Part shown: one piece after another, positions 11,957 to 32,055 of the stretch
How the letters are laid out: each line of letters starts with the position of its first letter
How positions within the stretch are numbered: the first letter of the stretch is position 1
NCBI RefSeq assembly: GCF_030814995.1
Contig: NZ_JAUSVX010000002.1
Coordinates: forward strand, 62,001 to 126,000
DNA from: Labrys wisconsinensis
GTDB lineage: Bacteria > Pseudomonadota > Alphaproteobacteria > Rhizobiales > Labraceae
Reading direction: 5' to 3'
Length of the DNA: 64,000 nucleotides
Position numbers and translations under genes: made by a program
Notes under the pieces: generated by a model
Databases searched by the model: none
What the model was told of the DNA's origin: nothing
The model's input: the letters and a program-made list of their open reading frames with translations, nothing else

Positions 11957-12070
11957 CCCGGGCCGGCGCGACGGCAGGGCTGCCCGACGGGCGAGCCGCC
12001 GGGGCCTGCGGGCCCTGTGGCCGCGCCTGCGCGCGGTCCGGCGTCTCGCGCCCTTCGATAGGCCTGTGAC

Positions 12071-12868: not shown

Positions 12869-12895
12869 TCGCCACCTTGTTCAGGATCGCGGGCG

Positions 12896-13945: not shown

Positions 13946-14050
13946 GGGGCGCGGAGAGCCGCTGCTGGCCTCCTCGAGACCGTGGATTTCGAGATGCCCC
14001 GGCACCGCGCGCCCGACGGGCCGATGCCCCGTCCACGATCCCGAGCCGAG

Positions 14051-14078
14051 CTTCCCGAAACGCGCTTCCCGAAACGCG
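14051..14078. repeat. 14-bp tandem repeat in the inter-glycosyltransferase gap
   Basis: The unit cttcccgaaacgcg occurs twice without mismatch at 14051-14064 and 14065-14078, followed by a degenerate start of a third copy (cttctcgg). It lies in the 168-base gap before the next glycosyltransferase. No function is evident. Confidence 0.75.
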
Positions 14079-14113
14079 CTTCTCGGTGCCTCGGCCCGCG
14101 CAAAATCGGGTTG

Positions 14114-15286
14114 ATGGAGCCGGCCAGCTTATATATGAATCGCGCCGCTCTTCAGAAAAATGGCGTTACTTTGAAGATACCTCCCTTCAACGGGTCGCTT
14201 GACCCGCCACTTCGTGTCGCGATCATCATGCCGCGCGGCATGTTCTTCGGACCCGAGCAGGCAACTTCTATCGACTTGTGTGTTCGAGACTTTGTAGGTG
14301 GCAGTCGATTTTCTAAGAGCACAACCGTATTTGCGGACTCGATTGCACGACCTTTCAGGGATATCGACGTTGAGCTCGTCCCGCATTCCGTGCGGCGGAC
14401 GCATGCCCTGCGGATAGGATGGCTCTGGTGGCGCCTGCGCCGCTCAGCCCCTGACGTCGTGGTGGCGCACCACCATCTGCCGACCGCAGCATGGCTGGCC
14501 CGTCTGCTGCCCGGCGTCCCCGTTCTGTTTCATGTCCATAATTTCATCAAGGCCAAGGCCGGCCGCGCCCATCGCCATCGAGTGCGGCAGTTCGGGAGGC
14601 TGGCCGGTGTGATCTGCGTGAGCGATGCCGTCCGCGGCGCCTTCGAACGCGACTATCCGCAGACGACGCGCGCCGTGACCGTGCACAACGGCCTCGATGT
14701 CGGCGCGTGGGAGCCCGCGACGGCGCGCGACAGGACAATCTTGCTGGTTGCCCGCGCCGCTCCGGTGAAAGGCATTCGCGAGGCGGTCATGGCGCTGCGG
14801 GAGGTGCTGCCGCGCCATCCCGGCTGGCGCGCCGTTCTGATCTTGAGCGAGAAGCACGTCGAGCCCGCGTTCAGCGCCGAGATCGAGGCGATGGCGGGGA
14901 AGGATGGCTCGATTGCGATCCGCTGGCAGCTGCCGTTTTCCGAGATCAAGAACGCGACCGAGCAGGCTGCCATCGCGATGGTGCCTTCGGTCTGGGAGGA
15001 GCCGTTCGGGCGCACGGCCCTCGAGGCGCATGCCGGCGGAGCGGCACTGATCTCGTCCGGCACCGGAGGCTTGCGCGAGGTCAGCGATGATGCCGCGGTC
15101 TATCTGTCGGAGGTCACGGCCACGCAGCTCGCCGCGGAGCTCGAAGCTCTGATCGTCGATCCAGATCTACGGCAGACGCTTGGTGCGAAGGGGCTTTCCA
15201 GGGCACGCGTCTTCGATCTCCTCGAGGTCAGCAAAAGGCTCGACGCCGTCTATGAGAGCGTCAAGTCCTCAAAGGCAAGAACATGA
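14114..15286 (+). CDS. Family 4 glycosyltransferase, locally atypical base composition
   Basis: A 390-residue GT-B transferase. The N-terminal domain begins around LRVAIIMPRGMFFGPEQAT; the donor domain has TILLVARAAPVKGIREA and the E-x7-E signature in EEPFGRTALE. The start is unsure: ATG 14114 (MEPASLYM) or ATG 14135 (MNRAALQ); the frame is open back to 13982. The first 250 bases are far less GC-rich than the rest of the window (28 of 60 bases are G or C at 14281-14340) and use A/T-ending codons freely, suggesting this gene or its 5' part was acquired. It overlaps the next gene as ATGA. Confidence 0.83.
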   Translation: MEPASLYMNRAALQKNGVTLKIPPFNGSLDPPLRVAIIMPRGMFFGPEQATSIDLCVRDFVGGSRFSKSTTVFADSIARPFRDIDVELVPHSVRRTHALRIGWLWWRLRRSAPDVVVAHHHLPTAAWLARLLPGVPVLFHVHNFIKAKAGRAHRHRVRQFGRLAGVICVSDAVRGAFERDYPQTTRAVTVHNGLDVGAWEPATARDRTILLVARAAPVKGIREAVMALREVLPRHPGWRAVLILSEKHVEPAFSAEIEAMAGKDGSIAIRWQLPFSEIKNATEQAAIAMVPSVWEEPFGRTALEAHAGGAALISSGTGGLREVSDDAAVYLSEVTATQLAAELEALIVDPDLRQTLGAKGLSRARVFDLLEVSKRLDAVYESVKSSKART

Positions 15287-16350
15287 CGTCCAACGCAGTC
15301 TGCGTCTTTTGCGACGACAATTATTATCCGCCGGCCGACATCCTCTGCCGGCAGCTCGCGGCGGAGGCCGACAAGACTTTCGATGTCTTCCTGTTTGTCG
15401 AGGGACGGAACGAGCGCCATGCGGAACGGGCGGAGCGGGCGCCCTATTTCGTGCGTCGTATCGACATGGACACGCTCATCCCGCCGGGCGCGCAGTTCAG
15501 CCGACGGATTTCGCGGCCCGCCTACAACAGGCTGTTCATGGGCCTGCTGCTGGAAGAACGCTATACGAAGGCGCTCTATCTCGACTGTGACGTCGCCGTC
15601 TGGGGACCTGTCTCGGCGCTGTTCGATCTCGACTTGCAGGGAGCCCCGCTCGCGGCGGTGCAGGACTGCGGCTTCGTCAAGCAAGGGACACCCGAGATCC
15701 GGAAACGATGGAACGACTATCTCGCATCGGTGGAGATTCCGGATGGGCAGCGCTACTTCAATTCCGGCATGCTGCTCGCCGATCTCACCGCCTGGCGTGC
15801 CCGTGACATGGCGGGGCTGATGGCCGGCTACATGGCCCGGCACGGGGCGCGGCTCACGGGCATGGATCAGGATACGCTCAACTTCATCTTTCAAGGCGAG
15901 TGGGCGGAGCTGTCGCCGCGGTGGAACTTCCAGCTCCTCTGGTCGGGCTTCGGGCTGGAAGAGGCGATCGATACGCGCATCTTCCATTATGTCGACAACA
16001 TCAAGCCTTGGCACGACCTCGTCTTCACCTGGGGCTCCCACCACATGGAGGATTTCAACCAGCGCCTCCAGACCGCGGCCTGGCCGGATTTCGTGGTCGG
16101 TGCCCGTCGGGCCGATCACTCCAAGCGCTTCGTGAAGTGGCGGCTGCGGCAGGCCCTGCGATGGATTCCGCTGGTGGGACAGCGTTTCGAGCGCGAGAAC
16201 CGGCAGCGGCGGCAATATCGGGATCTGACGATCGCCCATGTGCTGCAGGCGCTGCAGGACGAGCGCTATCTCGATGTGAGAGCGGGCCTGACCGCGATCG
16301 ACCCCATGGCCATCACCAAGCTCGCGCAGAACCGCGTGCGCGAGATATGA
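15283..16350 (+). CDS. Family 8 glycosyltransferase (LgtC/WaaJ-like)
   Basis: A 355-residue retaining GT-A transferase. The metal-binding D-x-D is in YLDCDVAVWG near residue 105, followed by the family elements YFNSGMLLADL and MDQDTLNFIFQG, and a C-terminal HYVDNIKPWHD block that matches the GT8 pattern of a His binding the donor phosphates. GT8 enzymes add galactose or glucose to LPS core sugars. The start ATG overlaps the previous stop, and its own stop overlaps the next start (ATGA), so the three genes are translated as a unit. Confidence 0.9.
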   Translation: MTSNAVCVFCDDNYYPPADILCRQLAAEADKTFDVFLFVEGRNERHAERAERAPYFVRRIDMDTLIPPGAQFSRRISRPAYNRLFMGLLLEERYTKALYLDCDVAVWGPVSALFDLDLQGAPLAAVQDCGFVKQGTPEIRKRWNDYLASVEIPDGQRYFNSGMLLADLTAWRARDMAGLMAGYMARHGARLTGMDQDTLNFIFQGEWAELSPRWNFQLLWSGFGLEEAIDTRIFHYVDNIKPWHDLVFTWGSHHMEDFNQRLQTAAWPDFVVGARRADHSKRFVKWRLRQALRWIPLVGQRFERENRQRRQYRDLTIAHVLQALQDERYLDVRAGLTAIDPMAITKLAQNRVREI

Positions 16351-17850: not shown

Positions 17851-18633
17851 ATGAGTGCCCTGCAGCTTGGTACGCTCGAAAAGGCCGCCAAGATACTCGA
17901 TCTCTACAATGAAAATGCCGAGAGTTTCACGTTTTCGGAGATTGTGAAGAAGACGGAGCTGGAGAAAGGCTCCGTCCAGCGCTTGTTGTTCACGCTTCAG
18001 AATCTGGGTTTTCTCAGGAAGCATCAGAAATACAAGCGCTACGCCCTGTCGCCCAAATTCATTTCCTTCGCCGTGTCGTTCTGCCAGTCGGATCCCCTGA
18101 TGATCCAGGCGCTGAAATATGTCGAACCGCTGGCGCGCCAGACCACCGAGGCGGTGAGCGTCGCGCTGATGGACGGCGTCAACGTGTTCTACCTCAACCG
18201 CATTCCGAACCTGGTCAGCCATGACTTCGCGCTCCTGCCCGTCCGACGCTACGCCTTCTGCACGGCCGCCGGGCGGGCGATGCTGTCCTGCATGTCGGAT
18301 GCGGACGTCGACCGGGTCCTCAGCCACTCGCCGATGCTGCGCCTCACCAGCCGGACCATCATCGATCCCGACGAGATCCGGCGCTTGCTCGTCGTTGCCC
18401 GGCAGGAGGGGATCGCCGTGCAGGACGGCGAGGTGCTGGAGAACGAGATCGGCATCGCCGCGCCGATCCTCGGCGACGGCGGCGTGCCGGTGGCGGCGGT
18501 GACGATGTCGCTCGACAAGGCCGAGTTCACGCTGGAGAGCGCGATCGCGCGCTACAGCGCCCTGGTGCAGACGGCAGCGCGCGACATGTCCAACCCGGCG
18601 CTGTCGGCGAGCCGCTTTCCGCCCTCCTGGTGA
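17851..18633 (+). CDS. IclR family transcriptional regulator
   Basis: A 260-residue regulator. The N-terminal winged helix-turn-helix covers about residues 5-65 (AAKILDLYNENAESFTFSEI, then EKGSVQRLLFTLQNLGFLRK); the rest is the IclR effector-binding domain with YLNRIPN and GIAAPILGDGGVPVAA. ATG 17851 has AAGGTGAG just upstream; an ATG at 17809 in frame is less well placed. The gene ends 10 bases from the convergent end of a twelve-gene catabolic cluster and is the obvious candidate regulator of it. The effector is unknown. Confidence 0.9.
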   Translation: MSALQLGTLEKAAKILDLYNENAESFTFSEIVKKTELEKGSVQRLLFTLQNLGFLRKHQKYKRYALSPKFISFAVSFCQSDPLMIQALKYVEPLARQTTEAVSVALMDGVNVFYLNRIPNLVSHDFALLPVRRYAFCTAAGRAMLSCMSDADVDRVLSHSPMLRLTSRTIIDPDEIRRLLVVARQEGIAVQDGEVLENEIGIAAPILGDGGVPVAAVTMSLDKAEFTLESAIARYSALVQTAARDMSNPALSASRFPPSW

Positions 18634-18643
18634 GCGCGGCCAG

Positions 18644-19462
18644 TCAGGCGAGCCCGAGGATGCGCCGGCTCTCGTCCGGCGTGGCCGGGCGGCGGTTCGC
18701 CGGGATCCGGGCGAGCACATCCTGCACCAGGTCGCCATTGTCGCGGGCGATGCGGCCGTCCGCGCAGGCAAAGCCGTTCTCGAAGCCGATGCGCAGATGG
18801 CCGCCGGCGCTGGCGGCGGCATCGAGCACGCTGTGCCCCCGCGCGCCGAAGGCGCAGGCCATCCAGGTGGCGCCGGCCGGCGCGAAGGCGTCCAGCGCCT
18901 CGGCGTCCGCGGCGTCCTCGCCGTAGCGGCCGACCACGTAGAGGACGCGCGGCTCGGCATCCGGCACGATGCCGCGGCGGACAGCATGGTCCAGCGCCGC
19001 CGCGTCGGCGGCGTCATACAGGATGTATTGCAGCGCCACCGCCTCGCGGCTGCACCAGGCCAGCAGGCCGGCGCGCTCGCCGTCGCTCAGCTCGGGGCGG
19101 GCGATCTCGCGCCATGCCAGCGAGACGGCCCGCGGCCGGGCGGCGCGCAGGAACGCCGCCTGCTCGGGGGCGGCGTAGCGCCCGGCCGCCTCGGTGGTGG
19201 TCTGCACGAGCGCGCGGTCGCCGACGCGGCGCAGAAGCGCCGCCTCCAGCGCTCGCGCCGCCTCGGCGTCGAGGATGTGGCGACCGTCGGGCGCGCGCAC
19301 ATGGACATGCAGCATCGTGGCTCCGGCTTCGACACAGGCCAGGCACGCCTCGACGATCTCGTCGCGGGTGATCGGCAGGGCGGGGTGGTCGGCCTTGCCG
19401 GCTCGCGCGCCGTTGGGCGCAGCCGCGAGCACCAGCGGCGTCGGGGGCGACGTCGGGCTCAT
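18644..19462 (-). CDS. BKACE / DUF849-type beta-keto acid cleavage enzyme
   Basis: A 272-residue TIM-barrel protein of the family that cleaves a beta-keto acid with acetyl-CoA to give acetoacetate and a new CoA ester (examples: 3-keto-5-aminohexanoate and dehydrocarnitine cleavage enzymes). The zinc-binding HVHVR motif follows EAGATMLH near residue 60, and the C-terminal acidic ligand is in IGFENGF near residue 235. The protein is shorter than the common 290-310 residues and its N-terminal loop (NGARAGKADHPALPIT) departs from the usual form, so substrate may differ. It is the distal gene of the minus-strand cluster. Confidence 0.82.
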   Translation of the reverse strand: MSPTSPPTPLVLAAAPNGARAGKADHPALPITRDEIVEACLACVEAGATMLHVHVRAPDGRHILDAEAARALEAALLRRVGDRALVQTTTEAAGRYAAPEQAAFLRAARPRAVSLAWREIARPELSDGERAGLLAWCSREAVALQYILYDAADAAALDHAVRRGIVPDAEPRVLYVVGRYGEDAADAEALDAFAPAGATWMACAFGARGHSVLDAAASAGGHLRIGFENGFACADGRIARDNGDLVQDVLARIPANRRPATPDESRRILGLA

Positions 19463-19490
19463 GGGCAGACGACGGTGGGGCAGGCGGCGC

Positions 19491-19844
19491 TCACGTCCGT
19501 GCCCGCTCGAACAGCTGGAAGACGGTGCCCTCCGGGTCGGCGGCCGTGACCGTGCGGCCATGCTCGCCCATGTCCCTGCGGCCGAGGATGCGTCCGCCGG
19601 CCGCCTCGATGCGCTCGCAGAGAGCCGGGAGAGCATCGACCTCGAACACGACCACCGCGCCGCGCACACCCGCGGGCGCCTCCTCCGGCGCGGCGATGGC
19701 GAAGTTGGCGCCGGCGTCGAACTGGACCCAGCGCTCGCCGTCGGCGAACTTGACGGGCAGGCCGAGCGCCGTCTCGTAGAAGGCCCTGGTGTGCGCCACG
19801 TCGCCGACGACGTGATAGCTGTTCTGGAGGCGTTTGACCGTCAT
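19491..19844 (-). CDS. VOC (glyoxalase/bleomycin resistance) family protein
   Basis: A 117-residue single VOC module: paired beta-alpha-beta-beta-beta units with TRAFYETALGLPV near residue 18, FDAGANFAIA in the middle, and the final EGTVFQLFER where a metal-binding Glu or substrate residue normally sits. It may be a small dioxygenase, isomerase or lyase, or only bind a ligand. It is 11 bases downstream of the aminotransferase gene and 28 bases upstream of the BKACE gene in the same operon. Confidence 0.82.
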   Translation of the reverse strand: MTVKRLQNSYHVVGDVAHTRAFYETALGLPVKFADGERWVQFDAGANFAIAAPEEAPAGVRGAVVVFEVDALPALCERIEAAGGRILGRRDMGEHGRTVTAADPEGTVFQLFERART

Positions 19845-19855
19845 CCCCGCTCTCC

Positions 19856-21205
19856 TCAGGATGCCGCTGCGGCGCCGCGGATCTCGGCGATCGATCGGTC
19901 GACGGCACGGCCGAGCTTCTCGACGATCTCGTCGAGCTGCGGCTCCTCCAGGATATAGGGCGGCGCCAGCAGCACGTGGTCGCCCGCGCGACCGTCGAGG
20001 GTGCCGCCGGAGGGATAGCACATCAGGCCTTCGTGCATCGCGTTGGCCTTGATCCGGGCATGCAGCCGCAGGGCGGGATCGAAGGGCAGCTTGGCTGCCT
20101 TGTCCGCCACGAATTCGAGGCCCCAGAACAGGCCGCGGCCGCGGATGTCGCCGACATGCTCATGGTGCTGGAACACCTGGCGCAGGCGCGACGCCAGGCC
20201 GGCGCCGAGCTCGCGGACGCGGGCGAGCAGGTTCTCCTCGGCGATGGCGCGCTGCACGGCGAGCGCGCCGGCGCAGGCCGCCGCGTGGCCGACATAGGTG
20301 TGCCCGTGATGGAAGAAGCCGGACCCGGCGAGGATGGCCTCGTAGACCTTCGACGAGGCGATCATCGCGCCGATCGGCTGGTAGCCGGCGCCCAGCCCCT
20401 TGGCCACGGTGACGATGTCGGGCACCATCCCCTCCTGCTCGCAGGCGAACAGCGTGCCGGTGCGGCCCATGCCGCACATCACCTCGTCCAGGATGAGCAG
20501 GATGCCGTGCCGGTCGCACACCTCGCGCAGGCGCTGGAAATAGCCCGGCACCGCCGGCACGGCCCCGAGCGTTGCGCCCGAGACGGTCTCGGCGACGAAG
20601 CCGATCACCGTCTCGGCGCCGAGCCGCTCGATCGTGGCGTCGAGCTCGCGGGCGAGGCGCTCGCCATAGGCCTGCGCGGTCTCGCCGGCCTGCTGGTCGC
20701 GATAGGCATAGCAGGGCGAGACATGCTCGACGTCGATGAGCAGCGGCTCGAACAGGGTCCGCCGGCCGAGATTGCCGCCGACGGCGAGCGCTCCCAGGGT
20801 GTTGCCGTGATAGCTCTGGCGCCGGGCGATGAACCGGCGCCGCTGCGGCTCGCCGCGCTCGACGAAATATTGCCGCGCCAGCTTGAGCGCCGCCTCGATC
20901 GCCTCCGAGCCGCCCGAGACGAAGTAGACATGGTCGAGCCCCGGCGGGGCGCTCTCGGCCAGCAGATCGGCGAGCGCCTCGGCCGCGGGCGTGGTGAAGA
21001 ACGAGGTATGGGCGAAGGGGAGCGCGTCGAGCTGCGCCTTGATCGCCGCGATCACGCCGGCATGGGAGTGGCCGAGGCAGGAGACCGCCGCGCCGCCGGA
21101 GGCGTCGAGATAGCGCTTGCCGTCGGCATCGAGGACATAGGCGCCTTCGCCGCCGACGGCGACGGGATAGGCTTGCCGCGGCATGCGATGGAAGACGTGG
21201 CTCAT
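19856..21205 (-). CDS. Class III PLP-dependent aminotransferase
   Basis: A 449-residue fold-type I transaminase of the omega-amino acid:pyruvate/GABA group. The PLP-lysine is Lys269 in VTVAKGLGAG; the ring-nitrogen Asp is D240 in LILDEVMCG; the phosphate loop is VSGGSEAIEAALK near residue 97; SYHGNT near 131 stacks on the ring. The group moves terminal or secondary amines to pyruvate or 2-oxoglutarate. ATG 21205 overlaps the flavin reductase stop (ATGA). In context it probably removes the amino group of a transported amine. Confidence 0.9.
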   Translation of the reverse strand: MSHVFHRMPRQAYPVAVGGEGAYVLDADGKRYLDASGGAAVSCLGHSHAGVIAAIKAQLDALPFAHTSFFTTPAAEALADLLAESAPPGLDHVYFVSGGSEAIEAALKLARQYFVERGEPQRRRFIARRQSYHGNTLGALAVGGNLGRRTLFEPLLIDVEHVSPCYAYRDQQAGETAQAYGERLARELDATIERLGAETVIGFVAETVSGATLGAVPAVPGYFQRLREVCDRHGILLILDEVMCGMGRTGTLFACEQEGMVPDIVTVAKGLGAGYQPIGAMIASSKVYEAILAGSGFFHHGHTYVGHAAACAGALAVQRAIAEENLLARVRELGAGLASRLRQVFQHHEHVGDIRGRGLFWGLEFVADKAAKLPFDPALRLHARIKANAMHEGLMCYPSGGTLDGRAGDHVLLAPPYILEEPQLDEIVEKLGRAVDRSIAEIRGAAAAS

Positions 21206-21822
21206 GGCGACGGGTCCGCTGGCTTTGGAGGGGTGGGCTGCATATCCGGGAGGGGCTGGAGGCCGTGGAAGCCGCCGCCATGATAGACGAGGGGGCGATC
21301 GCCGTCGCCGGCCGTGACGGTGGTGACGACGCCGACCACCACGACGTGCGAGAACAGTGGGATCAGGCGGGCCGCGCGGCAGTCGACATGGCAGAGGGCG
21401 CCGGCGAGGCGGGGCGCTCCGCCCGGCGCGGGCGCCCAATCCACCAGGGTCGAGCGAGGCGCGGGGCCCAGCCGCCCGGCGAAGGCCTCGGCCGCATGGA
21501 GCTGATGCTCGCCGAGGAGATGGACGGTGAACCGGCGCGCCTCGCGCAGCGCCTCCAGCATGCGCGCGCCCTGGCGGATCGACACCAGCAGGGATGGCGG
21601 GGCCATGGAGAGCGACGTGACGGAGGTGGCGGTAAGGCCGACGATGTCCGGCCCCCGTCCGACCGTCACGGCGCAGACGCCGCCGGCCAGCCGGCGCATG
21701 CCGAGCCGGAAGGCGTCGGCGAGGTCGTCGGGCTCGGCCTCCTCCCTGCGGCCGGCGTCCGCGGCCGCGAGCCAGGGATCCTCGTCGAGGATCTCGCCCG
21801 GTGGTCCCGCGAAGCCGTCCAT
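21202..21822 (-). CDS. Flavin reductase family protein (partner of LLM monooxygenase)
   Basis: A 206-residue FMN-binding split-barrel reductase. After an acidic leader of about 40 residues it shows the family blocks LAGGVCAVTVGRG, IVGLTATSVTSLSMAPPSLL and HLLGEHQLHAAEAFAG, and near the end LVYHGGGFHGL. Such enzymes pass reduced FMN to a two-component monooxygenase. ATG 21822 shares one base with the stop of the LLM oxidoreductase gene (TGATG), so the two are translationally coupled; this strongly suggests a two-component flavin monooxygenase. Confidence 0.87.
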   Translation of the reverse strand: MDGFAGPPGEILDEDPWLAAADAGRREEAEPDDLADAFRLGMRRLAGGVCAVTVGRGPDIVGLTATSVTSLSMAPPSLLVSIRQGARMLEALREARRFTVHLLGEHQLHAAEAFAGRLGPAPRSTLVDWAPAPGGAPRLAGALCHVDCRAARLIPLFSHVVVVGVVTTVTAGDGDRPLVYHGGGFHGLQPLPDMQPTPPKPADPSP

Positions 21823-22889
21823 CACGCCACCGCGTCCGCCGGCTGCCTGGTGTCGGCGGCCAGGGCCTTGGTCACCAGCGGCATCACCTCGGCGCCGAAG
21901 CGTTCCATGGAGCGCAGCACGGCGCGGGACCCCAGGCCCGCGGGCCACATGAAACAGCTGAGGTCGGTGATGCCGATGGTGCGGATCTCGTGGACCAGGC
22001 GCTCGGCGACGGTTTCCGGCGCGCCGACGGGCAGGCCGGCGAGGATCGCCTCGAGCGTCGGCTCGCCGGCGACGGGACGGTCCTGGATGACATGGCCGTC
22101 CAGCACCTGGGCGCCGACGCGCATGTGGCCGGCGCAGCGTCCGGCATAGCGGATGCCTTCGGCGACCTTCATCAGCTCGGCCTTGTCGTCGGAGACGAAG
22201 ACATAGCGCTGGGCGGCGAAGCGTCGTCCGGCGAGATCGTAGCCGGCCTCGGCATATTGCCGGGCGACATGGTCGTGCAGCGACGTCAGCGCGGCGGTGT
22301 CGCCCCAGCCGACGGTGCAGAACGGGACGGCGTCGGTCGCCACCGCATGATGGATGGTGGGGGCCGACCAGGAGACGAAGAAGGTCTCGAGCCGGCGCGG
22401 ATGGTAGAGCCGGATGGCCTGCGGCACGTCGGGCAGCTGGTACATCCGGCCGGCATGCTGGAAGCGGTTGTGGTGCACCGCCTGGTCGATGATCTGCCAG
22501 ATCTCGAGCATGCGCTCCTGGCGCTCGGCGAGATCGGCGCCGAACGCGTCGAACTCGAAGCGCTGGTAGCCGGACCCGATGCCGAGCACCGCACGCCCCC
22601 GGCTCAGCTGGTCGAGCAGCGCGACCTCCTCGGCGACGCGGATCGGATTGTAGAGCGGCGCCACGATGACGGCCGGGCCGAGGCGGATGCGACGCGTCTC
22701 GCGCGCCACGGCCGCCGCCATCATCAGCGGCGAGGGGCAGAGGCTGTAGTTGGAGAAGTGATGCTCGGCGAACCAGGCGATGTCGAAGCCGAGGGCGTCG
22801 GCGAGCCTGGCGCATTCGATGGTGCCTTCGAAGACCTCGCGCTGCTCCAGGCCGTGCTGATTCATCAGGTTGAACAGACCGAACCGCAT
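21822..22889 (-). CDS. LLM-class flavin-dependent monooxygenase
   Basis: A 355-residue bacterial-luciferase-like TIM barrel. Family marks: MRFGLFNLMNQ strand, LGFDIAWFAEHHF near residue 33, SPLMMAAAVARETRRIRLG, and YNPIRVAEEVALLDQLSRGR followed by GIGSGYQRFEF. It uses reduced FMN, most likely from the coupled reductase, to oxygenate an unknown substrate. The upstream 110-base gap contains a candidate operator (22927-22941) shared with the head of the cluster. Confidence 0.9.
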   Translation of the reverse strand: MRFGLFNLMNQHGLEQREVFEGTIECARLADALGFDIAWFAEHHFSNYSLCPSPLMMAAAVARETRRIRLGPAVIVAPLYNPIRVAEEVALLDQLSRGRAVLGIGSGYQRFEFDAFGADLAERQERMLEIWQIIDQAVHHNRFQHAGRMYQLPDVPQAIRLYHPRRLETFFVSWSAPTIHHAVATDAVPFCTVGWGDTAALTSLHDHVARQYAEAGYDLAGRRFAAQRYVFVSDDKAELMKVAEGIRYAGRCAGHMRVGAQVLDGHVIQDRPVAGEPTLEAILAGLPVGAPETVAERLVHEIRTIGITDLSCFMWPAGLGSRAVLRSMERFGAEVMPLVTKALAADTRQPADAVA

Positions 22890-22926
22890 TCGACGTTCTC
22901 CTTATCACATAGTAGTAAAAAGTTAT

Positions 22927-22941
22927 CGATATTCGATATCA
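22927..22941. promoter_or_regulatory. Candidate operator, site 1 of a shared AT-rich motif
   Basis: The stretch TCGATATTCGATATC lies 38-52 bp upstream of the LLM gene start. It repeats CGATAT and resembles TTGATATTTGATAC at 29538-29551 ahead of the first gene of the cluster (11 of 14 positions equal). Both stand out against GC-rich surroundings. IclR regulators often bind AT-rich partly symmetrical sites, and one IclR gene adjoins the cluster, so this is a reasonable but unproven operator. Confidence 0.45.
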
Positions 22942-22999
22942 TCGTCAAGAGGCCGAGCGCAAGGGCGCCCGGTCCTCCGTCGTGTCGGAGCAGGCCGGC

Positions 23000-23758
23000 T
23001 CAGATGCCGACGATCACCTCGCCACCATTGGGGCTGATCACCTGGCCGGTGATGAAGTCGGCCTGGGGCGAGGCGAGGAAGGCGACGGTGTAGGAGAGCT
23101 CCCGCGGCTCGGCGTAGCGGCCGAGCGGCACGCGCGCGACCTTCTGGGCCATCTTTGCCTCGATGTCGGGCTGGGCCAGCACCATCTCGGTGACCACGCC
23201 CCCGGGCGCGACCGCGTTGACGTGGATGTTCCAGGGCGCGAGCTCCTTGGCCCAGGCCTTGGTGAGGCCGAGGAGCGCGGCCTTCGCGCCGCAATAGGGC
23301 GAGGCGTAGTGGTGCCCCACCATGCCCCAGATCGAGGAGATGTTGATGATCTTGCCGCGCCGCTGCCGCTTCATCGTCGGCACGACGGCGCGGGTGGCGA
23401 AGAAGCTGCCTTTGACGTGCACGGCGAAGGTGCGGTCGAACTCCGCTTCGGTCACGTCCTCGATCACCGGCTCGCCGCCGATGCCGGCATTGTTGACCAG
23501 GATGTCGATGCGGCCGAGCCGCGCGGCGAGCTCGCCGAGGAGCGCCGTCAGCCGCTCCGTGTCGGCGACGTCGCAGGCCAGGGCCGTCGCCTCGCCGCCG
23601 CTCTCGCGCACCAGGGCCGCCGTCTCCTCCGCCTTGTCGCCGCGGATGTCCTGGGCCACGATCCCTGCGCCGCGCTCGGCGAGCAGCAGCGCATGGGCCC
23701 GCCCCATGCCGGCGCCGGCGCCGGTGATGACGGCGATGCTTCCTTCCAGTTCACGCAT
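23000..23758 (-). CDS. SDR family oxidoreductase (tandem paralogue 1)
   Basis: A 252-residue classical SDR. TGAGAGMG binds the cofactor at about residues 12-19, with VAQDIRG after the second strand; NNAG is intact; Ser in NISSIWG and Tyr/Lys in YCGAKAA form the active site. The C-terminus reads TGQVISPNGG instead of the usual VDGG ending. It is strongly similar to the neighbouring SDR (23896-24651), for example in AALLGLTKAWAKELAPW, so the pair looks like a tandem duplication. It may oxidise the beta-hydroxyl of the cluster substrate. Confidence 0.9.
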   Translation of the reverse strand: MRELEGSIAVITGAGAGMGRAHALLLAERGAGIVAQDIRGDKAEETAALVRESGGEATALACDVADTERLTALLGELAARLGRIDILVNNAGIGGEPVIEDVTEAEFDRTFAVHVKGSFFATRAVVPTMKRQRRGKIINISSIWGMVGHHYASPYCGAKAALLGLTKAWAKELAPWNIHVNAVAPGGVVTEMVLAQPDIEAKMAQKVARVPLGRYAEPRELSYTVAFLASPQADFITGQVISPNGGEVIVGI

Positions 23759-23895
23759 GATCCGCTCCTTTGCTGGCGGGCACTCCGCCTCGCGGCGCCC
23801 GTCCGATATCAGTGCCCGGTGGGCATGGCTCCGCCTTCGCCGCACCGCGGTGCGACGTCGGCTCGCGGCGCCGGCGGCTTCGGCCGGGCCGCCGT

Positions 23896-24651
23896 TCAGA
23901 ATCCGACGACCGTCTTGCCCCCGTTCGGACTGATCACCTGGCCGGTGATGAAGCCGGCCTCCTCGCTGGCCAGGAAGGCCAGGCTGGAGGCGATCTCCTC
24001 CGGCTGGGCCCAGCGGCCGAGCGGCACCTCCAGCTCCTCCCGCCGCACGCCCTCGGCGCCGAGCGTCTCCAGGACCATCCGGCTCCAGACCCCGCCGGGC
24101 GCGATGGCGTTGACGGTGATGCCCCAGGGCGCGAGCTCCTTGGCCCAGGCCTTGGTCAGGCCGAGCAGGGCGGCCTTGGCGGCGATGTAGTCGGAGGCGA
24201 GGGTGTGGCCCGCCTGCGCCCAGCGCGAGGAGATGTTGACGATGCGGCCCCAGCGCTGCGCCTTCATGGCCGGGACGGCCGCCCGGGCGCAGAAGAAGCT
24301 ACCCTTGACGTGGATGCCGATCATCCGGTCGAAGGCCGCGGCGTCGATCGCCTCGATCGGACGGTCGATGCCGATGCCGGCATTGTTCACCACGATGTCG
24401 ATGCGGCCGAAACGCCCCATCAGGCTCTGGGCCATCCGGTCGATGGCGGCGACGTCGGCGATGTCGAAGCCGCAGGCCACGGCCGTGCCGCCATCCGCCG
24501 CGATCGCCCCGGCCGTCTCGCCGAGGCCGACCTCGTCGATGTCCTGCAGGGCCACGGCGGCACCGAGCGCCGCCAGGCGCAGCGCATGGGCTCGGCCCAT
24601 GCCCGATGCGGCGCCGGTGACGATCGCAACTCTTCCGGCAAGGCCCGTCAT
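23896..24651 (-). CDS. SDR family oxidoreductase (tandem paralogue 2)
   Basis: A 251-residue classical SDR with TGAASGMG at about residues 12-19, LQDIDEVG after strand two (NAD-type Asp), NNAG, Ser in NISSRWA, and Tyr/Lys in YIAAKAA. It ends TGQVISPNGGKTVVGF, sharing the ISPNGG variant with its neighbour. The start overlaps the stop of the ABC ATPase gene (ATGA). A 137-base gap with two GC hairpins (TGCCC/GGGCA at 23813-23825 and CGCACCG/CGGTGCG at 23841-23854) separates it from the next SDR. Confidence 0.9.
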   Translation of the reverse strand: MTGLAGRVAIVTGAASGMGRAHALRLAALGAAVALQDIDEVGLGETAGAIAADGGTAVACGFDIADVAAIDRMAQSLMGRFGRIDIVVNNAGIGIDRPIEAIDAAAFDRMIGIHVKGSFFCARAAVPAMKAQRWGRIVNISSRWAQAGHTLASDYIAAKAALLGLTKAWAKELAPWGITVNAIAPGGVWSRMVLETLGAEGVRREELEVPLGRWAQPEEIASSLAFLASEEAGFITGQVISPNGGKTVVGF

Positions 24652-25790
24652 GGCGTCGTCTCCCCCGCGACCAGCAGCGCGTCCCGGCGCCCCCAGCCGA
24701 CCGCGACACGTTCGCCGCAGGGCATCAGCATGATGTCCGGCCGCGAGGGGATGCGGACCACCAGGAGGAGGTCGCTGGCCTCGAGCCGCACCCGGTAGCG
24801 CACGCTGCCGGTGGTGTAGACCACGTCCTCGACCGTGCCCTGGAAGACATTGTCGAGGCCGCGGGCTTCGGGGCCGAGCACGATGTTCTCCGGCCTGATG
24901 CACAGGACGCTGCCCTCGCCATGGCCCGGCGGGGCGCTGGCACGCACCCTGAGGCCGCCGGCCGTCTCGACCAGGGCCTCCTCGCCTTCGCGCCAGACCA
25001 GGGCGGCGACCGGCAGCAGGCTCGCCTCCCCGAGGAAGCTGGCGACGAAGGGCGTCGCCGGGCGCTCGTAGAGGCCGCGCGGCGAGGCGACCTGCTCCAG
25101 CCGGCCGCCGCGCATGATGGCGATGCGGTCGGCCATGAAGGCGGCCTCGTGCTGGTCGTGCGTCACATAGATCACCGTCACGCCGAGCGCGGACTGGAAC
25201 TTCTTGATCTCCTCCTGCATCTCCTCGCGCAGGTTCTTGTCGAGGGCGCCCAGCGGCTCGTCCATCAGCAGGAGGAGCGGGTCGTAGACCGCCGCCCGCG
25301 CCAGGGCGACGCGCTGCTGCTGGCCGCCCGACAGCTGGCTCGGCCGCCGCTCGCTCAGAGCCTCGAGCCGCACCATGGCCAGCATGCGCGAGACCCGCGC
25401 GGCGATCTCCGCCCTGGGGCATCCGCGCATGCGCAGGGGGAAGGCGATGTTCTCCGCCACGCTCATGTGCGGGAAGAGGGCGTAGTTCTGGAACACCATG
25501 CCGAAATTGCGCCGATAGGGCGGGATCGCCACCACGTCGGCGCCAGCGACCCGGATCGCTCCGGCCGACGGCGGCACGAAGCCGGCGGTGATGCCGAGCA
25601 GGGTCGACTTGCCCGATCCGCTCGGCCCGATGATGGCGAAAAATTCGCCGGCCTCGATGCGCAGGGTGGTCGGCCGCAGCGCCTCGAAGTCGCCATAGGT
25701 CTTGGCGACGTCCTCGAACTCGACGACGGCGCCGTGAGCGGTGGGGGCGGCGACCATCGGCGGGGCCTCGATCGTGAAATGCTGGTTCAC
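24648..25790 (-). CDS. ABC transporter ATP-binding protein, PotA type
   Basis: A 380-residue ATPase of the spermidine/putrescine-type importers. Walker A is GPSGSGKST, signature LSGGQQQRVALARA, Walker B LLLLMDEPLGALD, H-loop THDQHEA; a C-terminal TOBE regulatory domain follows (SVLCIRPENIVLGPEA). The GTG at 25790 overlaps the permease stop as GTGA and follows AGGGGGA; Met 11 codons on is an alternative. It powers the importer made of the two permeases and the binding protein just upstream. Confidence 0.92.
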   Translation of the reverse strand: MNQHFTIEAPPMVAAPTAHGAVVEFEDVAKTYGDFEALRPTTLRIEAGEFFAIIGPSGSGKSTLLGITAGFVPPSAGAIRVAGADVVAIPPYRRNFGMVFQNYALFPHMSVAENIAFPLRMRGCPRAEIAARVSRMLAMVRLEALSERRPSQLSGGQQQRVALARAAVYDPLLLLMDEPLGALDKNLREEMQEEIKKFQSALGVTVIYVTHDQHEAAFMADRIAIMRGGRLEQVASPRGLYERPATPFVASFLGEASLLPVAALVWREGEEALVETAGGLRVRASAPPGHGEGSVLCIRPENIVLGPEARGLDNVFQGTVEDVVYTTGSVRYRVRLEASDLLLVVRIPSRPDIMLMPCGERVAVGWGRRDALLVAGETTP

Positions 25791-26608
25791 CGTAACGTCC
25801 CCCTGCTTCTTCTGGCGCCGTGGCGATCGACCAGGGCCGCGACGACCAGGAGGCCGAGGGTCAGGGCCAGCAGCACCGTGGTCGCGGCGGCGATGAGCGG
25901 CGTCATCTGGTAGTTGAGCTGCTCCCACAGGAGCCGCGGCACGGTGCGGGTCAGCGGGCTGGTGAGGAAGATCGCCAGGATCAGCTCGTCGAACGAGAAG
26001 GTGAAGGCGAAGATGAAGCCCAGGACCACGCCGACACGGATCATCGGGAATGTGACGAATCGGAAGGTGTTCCAGGGGTTGGCCCCGAGCGTCATGGCCG
26101 CGAGCTCGTAGGTCGGCGCATAGCTGCGCAGCGACGCCGCCACGGTGACGAACACCAGCGGCATGCAGACCACGGCGTGGCCGAGCAGGATGGCGGGATA
26201 GCTGCCGTTGAGGCCGAGACGCACCATGACGGGGAAGAGGCCGATCGCCAGCACGATCTGCGGCAGCACCAGCGGCGCGATCATCAGGGCCGAGAGGGCG
26301 CGCCGCCCGGGAAGCCGGCCGCGCACCAGGGCAAGGGCCGCGAGCGTGCCGAAGACCGTCGCCAGGCAGGCAGCGGGGATGCCGATGCGGATGCTGTTGA
26401 CGATGGCGATGCGATAGTCGGGGCTGGCGGCGAAGGCCTCGTACCAGCGCAGCGACAGGCCCGGCGGCGGGAAGCTGAGGAAGGGCTCGCTGCTGAACGA
26501 CAGCGGCACGATCACCAGCGTCGGCACCACGAGATAGACCAGCACCAGCACGGCGAAGCCGGTGATGCCGGCGCCGAGGACGCGCCAGGCGGCGGGCAGG
26601 TTCGACAT
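25787..26608 (-). CDS. ABC transporter permease, PotC type
   Basis: A 273-residue inner-membrane permease with six predicted helices. The ATPase-contact (EAA) loop is present as ELAAMTLGANPWNTFRFVTFP near residue 175. It starts at ATG 26608, sharing one base with the stop of the other permease gene (TGATG). The polar loop with LSFSSEPFLSFPPPGLSLRWY is typical of PotC-like subunits. Confidence 0.92.
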   Translation of the reverse strand: MSNLPAAWRVLGAGITGFAVLVLVYLVVPTLVIVPLSFSSEPFLSFPPPGLSLRWYEAFAASPDYRIAIVNSIRIGIPAACLATVFGTLAALALVRGRLPGRRALSALMIAPLVLPQIVLAIGLFPVMVRLGLNGSYPAILLGHAVVCMPLVFVTVAASLRSYAPTYELAAMTLGANPWNTFRFVTFPMIRVGVVLGFIFAFTFSFDELILAIFLTSPLTRTVPRLLWEQLNYQMTPLIAAATTVLLALTLGLLVVAALVDRHGARRSRGTLR

Positions 26609-27516
26609 CAGGCGACCTCCCCGCTCGGCCGGCCGCCCGCCAGGCGGGTGGCGGCCCGCTCGTAGACGACGAAGAGCACGCAGGTCAGGGCCAGCACGAT
26701 GGTCGCCAGCGCCGAGGCCAGCGGCCAGTCCAAGAGGCGCGAGGCCTGCTGCTCGATGAGCACCGCGATCATGGTCCGCTGGCCGCCGAGCAGCGCCGGC
26801 GTGATGTAGAAGCCGAGCGACGAGATGAAGACCAGCACCGAGCCGGCGCTGACCCCCGACATCGACAGGGGCAGGTAGACATGGACGAACTGGCGCCAGG
26901 GATTGGCGCCGAGGACCGCGGCCGCGCGCAGGACGGTGCCGTCGATGCCGCGCATGGCATTGAGCAGCGGCAGGATCATGAAGGGCAGCATGATGTGGAT
27001 CATCGCGATCTGCATGCCGACGCCGTCGGTCATCAGCTTCAGCGGCCGGTCGATCAGGCCGGTGCCGATCAGCATGTCGTTGAGCACGCCGCGGCGCTGC
27101 AGGATGACGATCCAGGCATAGGTGCGGATCACCGTCGAGGTCCAGAACGGCACCAGGACCAGCGCGAGGCACAGGTGAAGCAGCCCGCCGCTGGCGCGGC
27201 TCACCATGAAGGCCACGGGATAGCCGAGGACCAGCGTCGCGAGCGTGACCAGGAGCGCGGTCCAGAACGTGTAGATGACGACCGCGAGGGTCGCCTGGTT
27301 CGTCAGGATCGCCGCATATTGGCCGAACAGGGTGGCGGAGCCGGAGAAGCTCTGCGCCACCACCACCGCGAGCGGCAGCACGAAGAAGGCGGCGAGGAGC
27401 GCCAGGGGCAGGAGCAGGAGCAGGGCATTGCCCCGCCCCGGCGTCCAGGGGCGTTGCCGCGCGTGGCCGCGGCCGTCGGCGGCGAGCCGCGCGCCATGTT
27501 GCAGCGTCACGCTCAT
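26608..27516 (-). CDS. ABC transporter permease, PotB type
   Basis: A 302-residue permease: a cytoplasmic arginine-rich leader of about 28 residues, then six helices. The EAA loop is RAAAVLGANPWRQFVHVYLP near residue 200. Features such as WTSTVIRTYAWIVILQ place it with PotB-type subunits. It begins four bases after the binding-protein gene and overlaps the next permease by one base. Confidence 0.92.
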   Translation of the reverse strand: MSVTLQHGARLAADGRGHARQRPWTPGRGNALLLLLPLALLAAFFVLPLAVVVAQSFSGSATLFGQYAAILTNQATLAVVIYTFWTALLVTLATLVLGYPVAFMVSRASGGLLHLCLALVLVPFWTSTVIRTYAWIVILQRRGVLNDMLIGTGLIDRPLKLMTDGVGMQIAMIHIMLPFMILPLLNAMRGIDGTVLRAAAVLGANPWRQFVHVYLPLSMSGVSAGSVLVFISSLGFYITPALLGGQRTMIAVLIEQQASRLLDWPLASALATIVLALTCVLFVVYERAATRLAGGRPSGEVA

Positions 27517-27520
27517 GCGC

Positions 27521-28609
27521 TCAGCCGAGCAGCCAGGCGTTGAAGCGGTCGAAGACCTTTGGCCCGGACTCCGCCCAGTAGTCGAAGTCCTGGAACACGG
27601 CCGTCTTGCCGTTCTCCGGCGAGTTCGGCAGCAGGGCGCGCTCGGCCGGGTCGAGCAGCTCGAAGGCCTTGGTGTTCACGGGGCCGTAGGGAATCGACTT
27701 GGAGAAGGTCGCCTGGTTCTGGGCGTCCATCATGTTGGCCAGGAACTCCATGGCCAGCTTCTTGTTGCGCGCTCCCTTGGGAATGACCATGGCGTCGCAG
27801 ACATAGAGGGCGTTGTCGAAGGTGTAGTCGACCGGGGCGCCGTCCTTCTTGGCCTTGAACAGGCGTCCGTTCCAGGTGGTGCCGACGTCGACCTCGCCGG
27901 CGATCAGCAATTGGGCGCCCTGCGCGCCGGAGGTCCACCAGGTCAGGTCCGGCTTGATGGTGTCGAGGCCCTTGAAGGCGCGGTCGAGGTCGATCGGATA
28001 GAGCTTGTCGCGCGCCTGGCCGAGGCCCATCGCCGCCACTTCCAGCGTCTGGGGCGCCAGCTTCCACAGGCTGCGCTGCCCCGGCTTGGCCTTGGCGTCG
28101 AAGAATTCCGCCCAGTCCTTCGGGCGGGACTGCGCGTCGAAGCTGCGGGTGTTCCAGGCCATGACATAGGCGGCGACGTCGGCGAGGAGGTAGTGCTCGC
28201 GGGCGGCCTGCGGCAGCAGCACGGACTTGTCGATGACGCCGTAGTCGATCGGCTCCAGCAGGCCGAGCCTGGCCAGCGCCGCGGCCTCGGTCGCGTCGAT
28301 GTTGAGGACGTCGACATCGACGGCGTTGTTCTCGACCATCGCCTTGACGCGGGCGGCGTCCATGTAGGGCGCGCCGAGGATCTGGATGCCGGTCTTGGCC
28401 TTGAACGTATCGAAATAGGCCGGCTTGTAGGCCTCCTCCAGCGCGCCGCCGGAATTGGGAACGGTCATCGTCGAGGGCTGGGCGCGCAGCACGGCGGGCG
28501 CGCCGATCGCCGCGCCGGCAAGCCCGGCGGCGACGCCGGTGAGCAGGCTGCGGCGGCTGAGAGTGTATCGGCGAGCGCTCGGCGGTTGCGGAGCAATGTG
28601 GTCGACCAT
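27521..28609 (-). CDS. Extracellular solute-binding protein, PotD type, Tat-exported
   Basis: A 362-residue periplasmic receptor. The N-terminus has a twin-arginine signal (LSRRSLLTG, residues 17-25) then a hydrophobic stretch ending APAVLRAQP, so it is probably exported folded. The mature part has the two-lobe binding protein pattern with VPNSGGALEEAYKP at the start and YLLADVAAYVMAWNTRSF in the hinge region, seen in polyamine/Fe-type receptors. The ligand is unknown; the rest of the cluster suggests an amine. AAGGGGA precedes the ATG. Confidence 0.9.
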   Translation of the reverse strand: MVDHIAPQPPSARRYTLSRRSLLTGVAAGLAGAAIGAPAVLRAQPSTMTVPNSGGALEEAYKPAYFDTFKAKTGIQILGAPYMDAARVKAMVENNAVDVDVLNIDATEAAALARLGLLEPIDYGVIDKSVLLPQAAREHYLLADVAAYVMAWNTRSFDAQSRPKDWAEFFDAKAKPGQRSLWKLAPQTLEVAAMGLGQARDKLYPIDLDRAFKGLDTIKPDLTWWTSGAQGAQLLIAGEVDVGTTWNGRLFKAKKDGAPVDYTFDNALYVCDAMVIPKGARNKKLAMEFLANMMDAQNQATFSKSIPYGPVNTKAFELLDPAERALLPNSPENGKTAVFQDFDYWAESGPKVFDRFNAWLLG

Positions 28610-28639
28610 CGGATTTCCCCTTCTGTGGATGGTTGCATT

Positions 28640-28662
28640 GCAGGCGCAGATCCTGCGCCTGC
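28640..28662 (-). other. Intra-operon hairpin upstream of the binding-protein gene
   Basis: A perfect inverted repeat with 10-bp arms (GCAGGCGCAG, spacer ATC) sits between the leading SDR gene and the binding-protein gene, 31 bases from the latter's start. There is no T-run, so it is more likely an mRNA processing or stabilising element, as often seen near binding-protein genes, than a strong terminator. Confidence 0.5.
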
Positions 28663-28706
28663 CGCGGGCCGCTGCTTCTGGCGACGGCTGGCCCGCATCT
28701 TCGACG

Positions 28707-29456
28707 TCACGCCATCAGGATGCCCCCGCTGGCGATGACGGTCTCGCCGGTCATGTAGCGGTTGCGGGGGCCGGCGAGGAAGCCGACCACCTCGGCGATG
28801 TCCTCCGGCGCGGCCACGCGGCCGAGCGGGGTGGAGCGGGCGAGGTCCTCGTAGATGCCGAGCTGGCGAAGGTTCGGCGTGTCGATCGGCCCGGGCGACA
28901 CCGCGTTGACCAGGATGCCCTCCGGCGCCAGCTCCTGGGCGAAGGACTTGGTGAAGCTGATGACGCCGGCCTTGGCTGCGGCGTAGTGCGCGTTCTTCGC
29001 ATAGGGGATGTAGGCATCGATCGAGGCGATCGAGACGATCCGGCCGGCCCGGCGCGGCTGCATGTGCCGGGCCGCCGCGACCGTCATGTGGAACATCGCC
29101 CTGAGATTGACGTCGAACACGTAGTCCCAGGTCTCGTCGTCGATCTCCAGGATCGGCTTGCGCGGATAGACGCCGGCATTGTTGACCAGGATGTCGACGC
29201 CGCCGAGCCGTTCCGCCGCTTCGCCGAAGGCGCGATGGGCGTCGGCCCGGCGGCGGATGTCGCCGGCGACGCCGTGCGCCCGGCCCCGGCCGCCGAGACT
29301 CGAGACGGCCGTCTCGAGGCCCGCCTCGTCGATGTCGATCAGGGCCACGGTCGCACCACGCTCGGCCAGCAGCCGCGATATGGCCAGGCCCAGGCCCTTC
29401 ACGCCGCCGGTGATCACGGCGGTCTTGCCCTCCAATTCGGTCGTGCCGGTGGTCAT
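28707..29456 (-). CDS. SDR family oxidoreductase, first gene of the catabolic cluster
   Basis: A 249-residue classical SDR: cofactor loop TGGVKGLG at about residues 16-23, LIDIDEAG after strand two (NAD-type), NNAG at about 91-94, Ser in SIASIDA, Tyr/Lys in YAAAKAG. The last strand reads TGETVIASGG. It differs clearly from the two downstream SDRs, so it should act on a different step. ATG 29456 is preceded by AGAGGGGACCC. It is separated from the transporter genes by 97 bases holding a hairpin. Confidence 0.9.
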   Translation of the reverse strand: MTTGTTELEGKTAVITGGVKGLGLAISRLLAERGATVALIDIDEAGLETAVSSLGGRGRAHGVAGDIRRRADAHRAFGEAAERLGGVDILVNNAGVYPRKPILEIDDETWDYVFDVNLRAMFHMTVAAARHMQPRRAGRIVSIASIDAYIPYAKNAHYAAAKAGVISFTKSFAQELAPEGILVNAVSPGPIDTPNLRQLGIYEDLARSTPLGRVAAPEDIAEVVGFLAGPRNRYMTGETVIASGGILMA

Positions 29457-29769
29457 GGGTCCCCTCTGTCGCAGGCTTGATATCACCGACGACCGACCGC
29501 CTCGTGGGTCTTTATGATCGTCATTCGATAATTAGTATTGATATTTGATACTTTCGCGATTGCAAGCCTTTTGTTGCCACGTCAGGCGCGGTCATGGAGC
29601 CTCGGTAACGGCCGGCGGCGGGGACGAGCGGGCGCCTGCGGGGGGCCCCGCTTCGATGGGCGCGGCCGGCGGAGGGCTGCGCCGGCCGCAGGGCTGAATT
29701 CCGTTGCCCTCGGCGGCGGCGGTTCTGTAAGGATGCGCCCATCTTCGGAACGACCAGCGGGCCGCCAGC
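29457..29769. other. Divergent intergenic region, 313 bp
   Basis: This gap separates the head of the minus-strand cluster from the malic enzyme gene. The left third (29515-29560) is distinctly AT-rich and holds the candidate operator listed separately; the remainder is very GC-rich with no recognisable gene. Promoters for both directions must lie here, but I see no clean -35/-10 pair. Confidence 0.5.
29535..29551. promoter_or_regulatory. Candidate operator, site 2 of a shared AT-rich motif
   Basis: GTATTGATATTTGATAC has imperfect two-fold symmetry (GTAT at one end, ATAC at the other) and contains TTGATATTTGATAC, which matches the site at 22927-22941 in 11 of 14 positions. It lies 79-95 bp upstream of the first SDR gene of the cluster. 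An upstream GATAAT-like stretch at 29527-29532 adds to the AT-rich patch. Confidence 0.45.

Positions 29770-32055
<2,286 letters not shown>

Follow-up and report, generated by a model that had tools for sequence, protein, structure and literature searches.

Several described systems resemble parts of the locus analysed here, and the following rests on excerpts of the reports cited in this paragraph. In the BKACE (DUF849) family, groups G6 and G7 of Bastard et al. are described as having no BKACE activity; G6 carries out decarboxylation, and G7 was inactive on all tested substrates (PMC4922564). BsfD of flavophos biosynthesis is a DUF849 protein whose active site is altered and whose chemistry differs from BKACE cleavage (PMC12871164), and Kat is the 3-aminobutyryl-CoA transaminase of a variant lysine fermentation (PMC3149608). 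The solute receptor Atu4243 of Agrobacterium is represented by the structures 4eq7 and 4euo (PMC6829864), and the sensor iGABASnFR2 contacts gamma-aminobutyrate (GABA) with W9, T13, F100, Y102, W202, R205, D228 and Y264 (PMC12999171). Progesterone degradation provides a precedent for a luciferase-like monooxygenase (LLM) that acts as a Baeyer-Villiger monooxygenase (PMC12239570). Here we analyse a twelve-gene cluster on the minus strand of Labrys wisconsinensis, located at 18644-29456 of a 64,000-base window (62001-126000 of contig C2; genome of 8.93 Mb in 55 contigs), which joins a Pot-type importer and an LLM with a class III aminotransferase (AT3) and a BKACE homologue. In the best-supported account, the cluster is a rare regulon, probably under IclR control, for an amino compound, to which a BKACE homologue of a distinct and probably differently acting subfamily has been added as the partner of AT3. 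Labels beginning with L, G and C denote fetched loci, genomes and contigs, and G000 is the genome of the window itself.

The BKACE homologue (18644-19462, minus strand) matches PF05853 at about 177-178 bits, over the gathering cut-off of 24.8. This is roughly half the score of the two top matches in the same genome (354 and 334 bits); a fourth match reaches 75 bits. Four NCBIfam BKACE models were matched and none exceeded its cut-off, the best being NF052387 with 102 bits vs 382. The window protein was compared in an alignment with 71 further proteins of the fetched loci, and residues are given in what we take to be Kce numbering. The zinc ligands His46, His48 and Glu230 are kept in all 72 sequences, together with Arg226. 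The two alignment groups were defined by residue 231, so the informative result is the clean split at residues 141 and 143: all 50 sequences of the subfamily, including the window protein, carry Gln141, Ile143 and Asn231, and all 22 canonical sequences carry Glu, Glu and Asp at these positions. A loop Gly is also replaced by Glu in the subfamily (by Ser in one member). The Asp is kept in five solved members (Kce, 3lot, 3chv, 3no5 and 3fa5), and Glu143 and Asp231 of Kce reportedly act in catalysis. Tyr145 was dropped as a subfamily marker because it varies to Phe among canonical members, and the BKACE of L107, canonical by its residues, was dropped as a member. Since the acidic residues normal for the family are gone, the window protein probably does something other than the usual reaction of the family. 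The name '3-keto-5-aminohexanoate cleavage protein', given to the subfamily protein in 12 of 13 plasmid records (the thirteenth has no annotation there), is, going by the residues, probably wrong.

AT3 (19856-21205, minus strand; PF00202) exceeds the cut-off of the PRK07483 model NF005685 (765 bits vs 485), which specifies no substrate. A relative of AT3 with at least 50% identity was present in 13 of the 22 loci that carry the subfamily and in 1 of 20 canonical loci (Fisher p = 2.3e-4), the latter with AT3 placed 6 kb from BKACE. These loci were chosen by BKACE matches and span at most 20 kb, seven of them being much shorter (L024, L025, L077, L083, L232, L233 and L238); the control loci L183, L240 and L241 were dropped because no usable match was recovered. 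When all aligned loci are counted, however picked, AT3 occurs in 38 of 49 subfamily loci and in 3 of 22 canonical loci (L107, L124 and L228). Conversely, in a set of 40 loci selected by AT3, a subfamily gene adjoins it in 15; we chose the set ourselves among the top-scoring positions that were listed for 159 of 397 genomes. Clustering of the neighbours in these 40 loci gave two recurrent families, in 14 and 10 loci, whose sequences we read as those of a TRAP permease and a TAXI receptor. AT3 and the BKACE homologue occur as a pair in eleven plasmid loci, with an RpiR-family gene in all except L088. The importers beside these plasmid pairs differ. GlnHPQ accompanied by a C45 peptidase occurs on plasmids of rhizobia and Paracoccus (L086, L087, L089 and L094), a hint that the substrates there may be N-acylated or peptide-linked. 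S. meliloti has a Pot-like importer, L093 has a TAXI-family TRAP transporter, and L088 and L090 carry ABC importers of other kinds. Two plasmid loci (L037 and L091) have the subfamily without AT3. Literature searches with the S. meliloti locus tags found only nitrogen-stress and Hfq work.

Because the pairing recurs across loci, both AT3 and the BKACE homologue probably work on the same compound, and the pair would have been joined to the oxygenase cluster in the window. We consider it evenly balanced whether the subfamily constitutes an enzyme in its own right, whose reaction needs no acetyl-CoA and whose regular partner across alphaproteobacteria is a PRK07483-type transaminase, and whether the window cluster, with this pair built in, is a new catabolic pathway that depends on an oxygenase and handles an amino compound so far undescribed. 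The frequent transaminase partner offers a direct way into the search for the true reaction of non-BKACE DUF849 proteins.

The original prediction placed twelve minus-strand genes here with an IclR gene converging on them, and analysis of open reading frames, starts and Pfam domains located every one of them. The gaps between the genes of the cluster range from -4 to 28 bases, apart from three (97, 137 and 110), and the IclR-family regulator occupies 17851-18633 on the plus strand (IclR_C and HTH_IclR domains). The same core order with a converging IclR gene defines type I loci, of which there are eight including the window (the others are L046, L047 and L095-L099). As far as the contigs extend, their common order is SDR1-receptor-PotB-PotC-PotA-SDR2-SDR3-LLM, where SDR denotes a short-chain dehydrogenase, and the IclR gene closes the cluster in all eight. 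The contig of L095 begins inside PotB, and L098 has one SDR only between ATPase and LLM, one fewer than the rest. The flavin reductase is present in seven of the eight, AT3 in five, the VOC protein in four and BKACE in the window alone. In 16 type II loci (L038, L051, L052, L100-L102, L104, L105, L107-L110, L113, L114, L124 and L141), the LLM is 40-45% identical to that of the window, and the order is SDR1-receptor-PotB-PotC-PotA-SDR-(SDR)-LLM. The transporter half lies apart from the enzyme half in the Ochrobactrum plasmid locus L038, and the contig of L114 stops at SDR1. AT3 adjoins 12 of the 16 type II clusters, an RpiR-family gene occurs in 14, and a gene of the NADPH-dependent FMN (flavin mononucleotide) reductase family lies downstream in 8. 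Eight other loci with parts of the gene set were left out of both counts, and L096 with L097, L107 with L124, and L100-L102 are close relatives that are not independent. Since seven other loci repeat the gene order and the converging IclR gene, the arrangement is not due to chance, and a chance assembly of genes was ruled out. Conservation of the neighbourhood in other genomes, on which the original prediction turned, is thus found in the core order of seven other type I and 16 type II loci.

The distribution of the cluster is sparse. A search of 397 genomes of the order of the window found close LLM orthologues only in G000 itself, G094 (79% identity) and G008 (75%), and more distant matches (at most 45%) in 22 further genomes. 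No LLM match at E <= 1e-85 beyond the window's own genome was found in 385 genomes of the class, and no close match in four other genomes of the genus, in which the best was 7e-81 with 42% identity (G004). A scan of one genome per species, covering 84,980 species with two peptide patterns, added five type I loci from the best 80 of 498 relatives (77 loci); given this sampling, more clusters may exist. The LLM identities of the added loci are 78% in Geminicoccus flavidas (L095), 77% in both Aestuariivirga sp. YIM B02566 (L096) and Rhizobiales bacterium Y(2018) (L097), 73% in Methylocapsa sp. S129 (L098) and 70% in a Rhizobiaceae metagenome-assembled genome (L099). Judged by gene order and distribution, the cluster is a rare accessory module with a conserved gene set for predicted uptake and oxidation. 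The original prediction knew of no described pathway with this gene set, and our literature searches for a BKACE/LLM/Pot pathway likewise found no account of the cluster.

The DNA upstream of SDR1 was aligned in seven type I loci, and the conserved block corresponds to window positions 29517-29566 (minus strand), a putative promoter/operator region that holds TATCAAATATCAATA at 29536-29550. The 15-base motif is present upstream of SDR1 in all seven type I loci reaching that end, by construction, since the motif was taken from this alignment; it was loosened by one base once the LLM site of the window was seen. The sites upstream of LLM do not follow from its construction. A second operator-like region lies upstream of LLM (22903-22938), with TATCGAATATCGATA at 22924-22938 on the minus strand and a second copy with one mismatch at 22903-22917 on the plus strand. 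Allowing one mismatch, TATCNNATANYAATA occurs at three places in the window, one upstream of SDR1 and two in the SDR3-LLM gap, all within the cluster, and the mean in 100 shuffles is 0.00. The looser TATCNNATANYNATA, again with at most one mismatch, occurs upstream of LLM in six of the eight type I loci and, in L095 and L099, also close to where the IclR gene starts. For comparison, 40 other loci (755,423 bases) contain 9 matches and the 16 type II loci (294,087 bases) contain 4. The presence of the motif upstream of both SDR1 and LLM suggests one regulon. We predict that the motif is an IclR operator at two promoters, with the IclR protein as the presumed binder, so that LLM, flavin reductase, AT3, VOC and BKACE would form a second transcript. 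The IclR protein scores 141 bits against the PcaR/PcaU subfamily model, below its cut-off of 285.

The receptor (27521-28609, minus strand; PF13416) is a Pot-type periplasmic solute-binding protein of the GABA/opine-receptor branch. Its best solved relatives are the GABA sensors 9d57 and 6dgv, followed by 4eq7/4euo, with the agropine and mannopine receptors below. In the pocket alignment, four of the eight GABA-site residues are kept (W202, R205, D228 and Y264). The other four are changed: W9 to Ser, T13 to Leu, F100 to Asp and F102, which is Tyr in the sensor, to Ala. Among 24 aligned cluster receptors, W202, R205 and Y264 are kept in all and D228 in 22, and the new acid at the F100 position is Asp in 22 and Glu in 2. 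Because the contacts to amine and carboxylate are kept and the rest of the pocket is altered, we infer that the ligand is an amino-acid-like zwitterion, with an amine and a carboxylate or similar anion, that is larger or more polar than GABA. The curated PotD and PotF models score far below their cut-offs (50 bits vs 582 and 22 vs 636), and a polyamine importer in the strict sense was rejected on this ground. The remaining importer genes, all on the minus strand, encode a PotB-type permease (26608-27516; PF00528; best NCBIfam PotB 167 bits, below the cut-off of 348), a PotC-type permease (25787-26608; PF00528; best NCBIfam PotC 139 bits, below 326) and a PotA-type ATPase (24648-25790; PF00005 and TOBE_2), which passes TIGR01187 potA with 356.4 bits vs 355.6. 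The kinship of the receptor with GABA sensors and receptors and the four retained contacts support the original prediction that the cluster serves uptake and degradation, probably of an amine or amino acid, and from its genes the cluster probably imports and degrades a small amine.

The enzymes between importer and aminotransferase, likewise on the minus strand, are oxidative in type. SDR1 (28707-29456; PF13561/PF00106) carries GGVKGLG and YAAAK motifs; SDR2 (23896-24651; PF13561) has a YIAAK motif, and SDR3 (23000-23758; PF13561), which resembles SDR2, a YCGAK motif. The LLM (21822-22889; PF00296, 191 bits) is predicted to be an FMN-dependent monooxygenase and exceeds none of the NCBIfam cut-offs listed (25 of 31 matched), the best being 125 bits vs 413; among these matches it stays below the cut-offs of the SsuD, SfnG, NtaA and luciferase alpha/beta models. 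Its nearest solved structures are alkanal monooxygenase/luciferase. The gene of this Bac_luciferase domain protein adjoins that of a flavin reductase (21202-21822; PF01613; HpaC-like structures), the arrangement expected of a two-component LLM, and the reductase is the likely LLM partner. The VOC (glyoxalase-fold) protein lies at 19491-19844 (PF00903, PF18029). In 12 of the scanned loci (L112, L115, L120, L122, L125, L126, L129, L132, L134-L136 and L139), a related LLM is found together with two ABC ATPase genes and homologues of SDR1, flavin reductase and VOC, and a related LLM with these three homologues accompanies an importer of the branched-chain type in L059. Because these homologues recur with other ABC importers, SDR, LLM, reductase and VOC look like a reusable oxidation module. 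Other LLM/SDR clusters with other ABC genes are present in the genome of the window at L060 (C11:66000-85999) and L061 (C4:122000-141999), with LLMs 35-40% identical. The related cluster of L138 combines an LLM and a Pot importer, with no SDR match, and is followed (11111-15848) by a proline racemase family gene (11111-12058) and a DAO-family FAD-dependent oxidoreductase gene (14577-15848). A malic enzyme/phosphate acetyltransferase fusion gene, divergent and upstream of the window cluster (29770-32055), was taken as unrelated.

The following mechanism would accommodate these features. IclR would control the cluster as one regulon, and the receptor would capture a small zwitterion with an amine and a carboxylate or similar anion. 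The SDRs would turn one or more substrate hydroxyls into ketones, and the LLM, supplied with reduced FMN by the flavin reductase, would insert oxygen next to the carbon of a carbonyl or an amine, thereby breaking the skeleton. AT3 would then strip the primary amine from the resulting fragment, leaving an oxo acid or aldehyde. The BKACE homologue would process this product by a reaction other than acetyl-CoA-dependent Claisen cleavage; its likeliest role is that of a zinc-dependent decarboxylase or carbon-carbon lyase of a beta-oxo acid. For the VOC protein, isomerisation or detoxification of a reactive carbonyl is a possible role. Taken as a whole, this explanation is tentative, and we judge its chance of being right to fall slightly short of even. 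The cluster offers a receptor, candidate operators and a regulator, so its substrate should be findable by ligand screening.

Several observations weigh against this explanation. Seven of the eight type I clusters lack BKACE, which may therefore have been added late or have no link to the rest; three lack AT3, four lack VOC and one lacks the flavin reductase. No AT3 was found in 9 of the 22 subfamily loci. A Baeyer-Villiger step would call for an esterase or lactonase to hydrolyse its ester product, and none of the twelve genes encodes one. The motif is missing upstream of LLM in L096 and L097, and common descent accounts for part of its conservation. In two type II clusters (L107:11098-12260 and L124:11098-12260), a gene for a 110-residue protein and then one for a canonical BKACE follow directly after LLM. 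The BKACE of L107 is of the 3-oxoadipate type (NF053568, 490 bits), and the preceding 110-residue protein, tested in L107, has no Pfam or NCBIfam match. This arrangement favours ordinary BKACE chemistry there and counts as evidence that beta-keto acid chemistry can follow the LLM.

Three other routes were weighed against that of a zwitterion oxidised by SDRs and LLM and passed to AT3 and the altered BKACE homologue. The first, which we regard as unlikely, takes the substrate to be opine-like or an N-substituted amino acid, of which the LLM would cleave the C-N bond in the manner of NtaA-type enzymes, leaving AT3 a primary amine to act on and the SDRs a polyol or oxo fragment. The agropine and mannopine receptors among the solved relatives of the window receptor agree with such a substrate, although they score below the GABA receptors. 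An NtaA-family LLM or homologue adjoins three related clusters (L096, L097 and L131, the first two close relatives); that of L096 (12532-13824), the one tested, reaches 586 bits with TIGR03860. The LLM of the window itself, however, falls outside the NtaA family, at 28.7 bits vs a cut-off of 279.7. RidA, a family known for hydrolysis of imines and enamines, is represented in L038 and L110, as would suit this route.

The route of the original prediction is quite unlikely for the window. It has an imported beta-hydroxy amino acid oxidised by an SDR to a beta-keto acid, which BKACE cleaves with acetyl-CoA as in carnitine breakdown. Membership in PF05853, the retained zinc ligands and Arg226, and the canonical BKACE directly after LLM in L107 and L124 speak for it, the last keeping the idea alive for those two closely related clusters. 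Nevertheless, the window protein and the 49 other subfamily members lack Glu141, Glu143 and Asp231, all four NCBIfam models matched score far below cut-off, and the other seven type I clusters do without BKACE. Because these three acidic residues are replaced and the subfamily often lies beside AT3, acetyl-CoA-dependent cleavage of a beta-keto acid by the window protein is doubtful, and the canonical carnitine-like route was rejected for the window on the residue evidence.

Very unlikely is a sulfonate route, in which AT3 would convert an aminosulfonate or substituted taurine to sulfoacetaldehyde for removal by sulfoacetaldehyde acetyltransferase (Xsc): xsc stands with RidA beside AT3 in the type II locus of Bosea (L110:2-2166; TIGR03457, 921 bits vs 676), as a broken copy in the Ochrobactrum plasmid cluster (L038:11700-13500), about 9 kb from the AT3/BKACE pair in Limimaricola, and as one copy over the cut-off in the genome of the window, outside the window, but it has no match in the window itself, a single type I match of 25% identity (L047), and is present in only 2 of 16 type II and 0 of 40 AT3-picked loci, on which counts a sulfonate pathway was rejected as the general explanation. 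On contig C8 of the window genome (L180:9845-15781), xsc lies near a gene for an AT3-like aminotransferase with 34% identity to AT3, possibly a separate taurine pathway.

Among the known systems, the LLM-SDR-flavin reductase-VOC clusters (L059, L112, L115, L134 and others) share with the window the association of SDR1, LLM, flavin reductase and VOC homologues. They differ in a branched-chain type importer where typed (L059), in a second, divergent LLM and in the absence of AT3. The Baeyer-Villiger monooxygenase of the pdc cluster resembles the window LLM in its luciferase-like domain and its expected need for a flavin reductase; the pdc genes form a steroid cluster and, as described there, include no amine importer (PMC12239570). 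The GABA receptors Atu4243 and Pf622 (4euo, 9d57 and 6dgv) are of the same Pot type, and their Trp, Arg, Asp and Tyr contacts are kept in the window receptor, whereas the four other contacts, including Phe to Asp and Phe to Ala, are changed. Kat, like AT3, is a class III aminotransferase found in the same pathway as a BKACE protein, which is Kce in its case (PMC3149608). In the part of that report used here, the substrate of Kat is a CoA ester derived from a true Kce; in contrast, AT3 is of the PRK07483 type and its partner is a non-canonical homologue. BsfD, by the portion of its report consulted, still uses acetyl-CoA, serves phosphonate biosynthesis and is altered at other residues than the window protein (PMC12871164). 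The G6 and G7 groups are likened to the window protein as non-BKACE members of DUF849, set side by side from the description of the groups. Compared with Kce and the rest of the BKACE/DUF849 family, the window protein shares PF05853, the zinc ligands and the Arg226 position, whereas its subfamily of 50 sequences is set apart by Gln, Ile and Asn at positions 141, 143 and 231, by scores below every NCBIfam cut-off for the window protein and by its frequent pairing with AT3.

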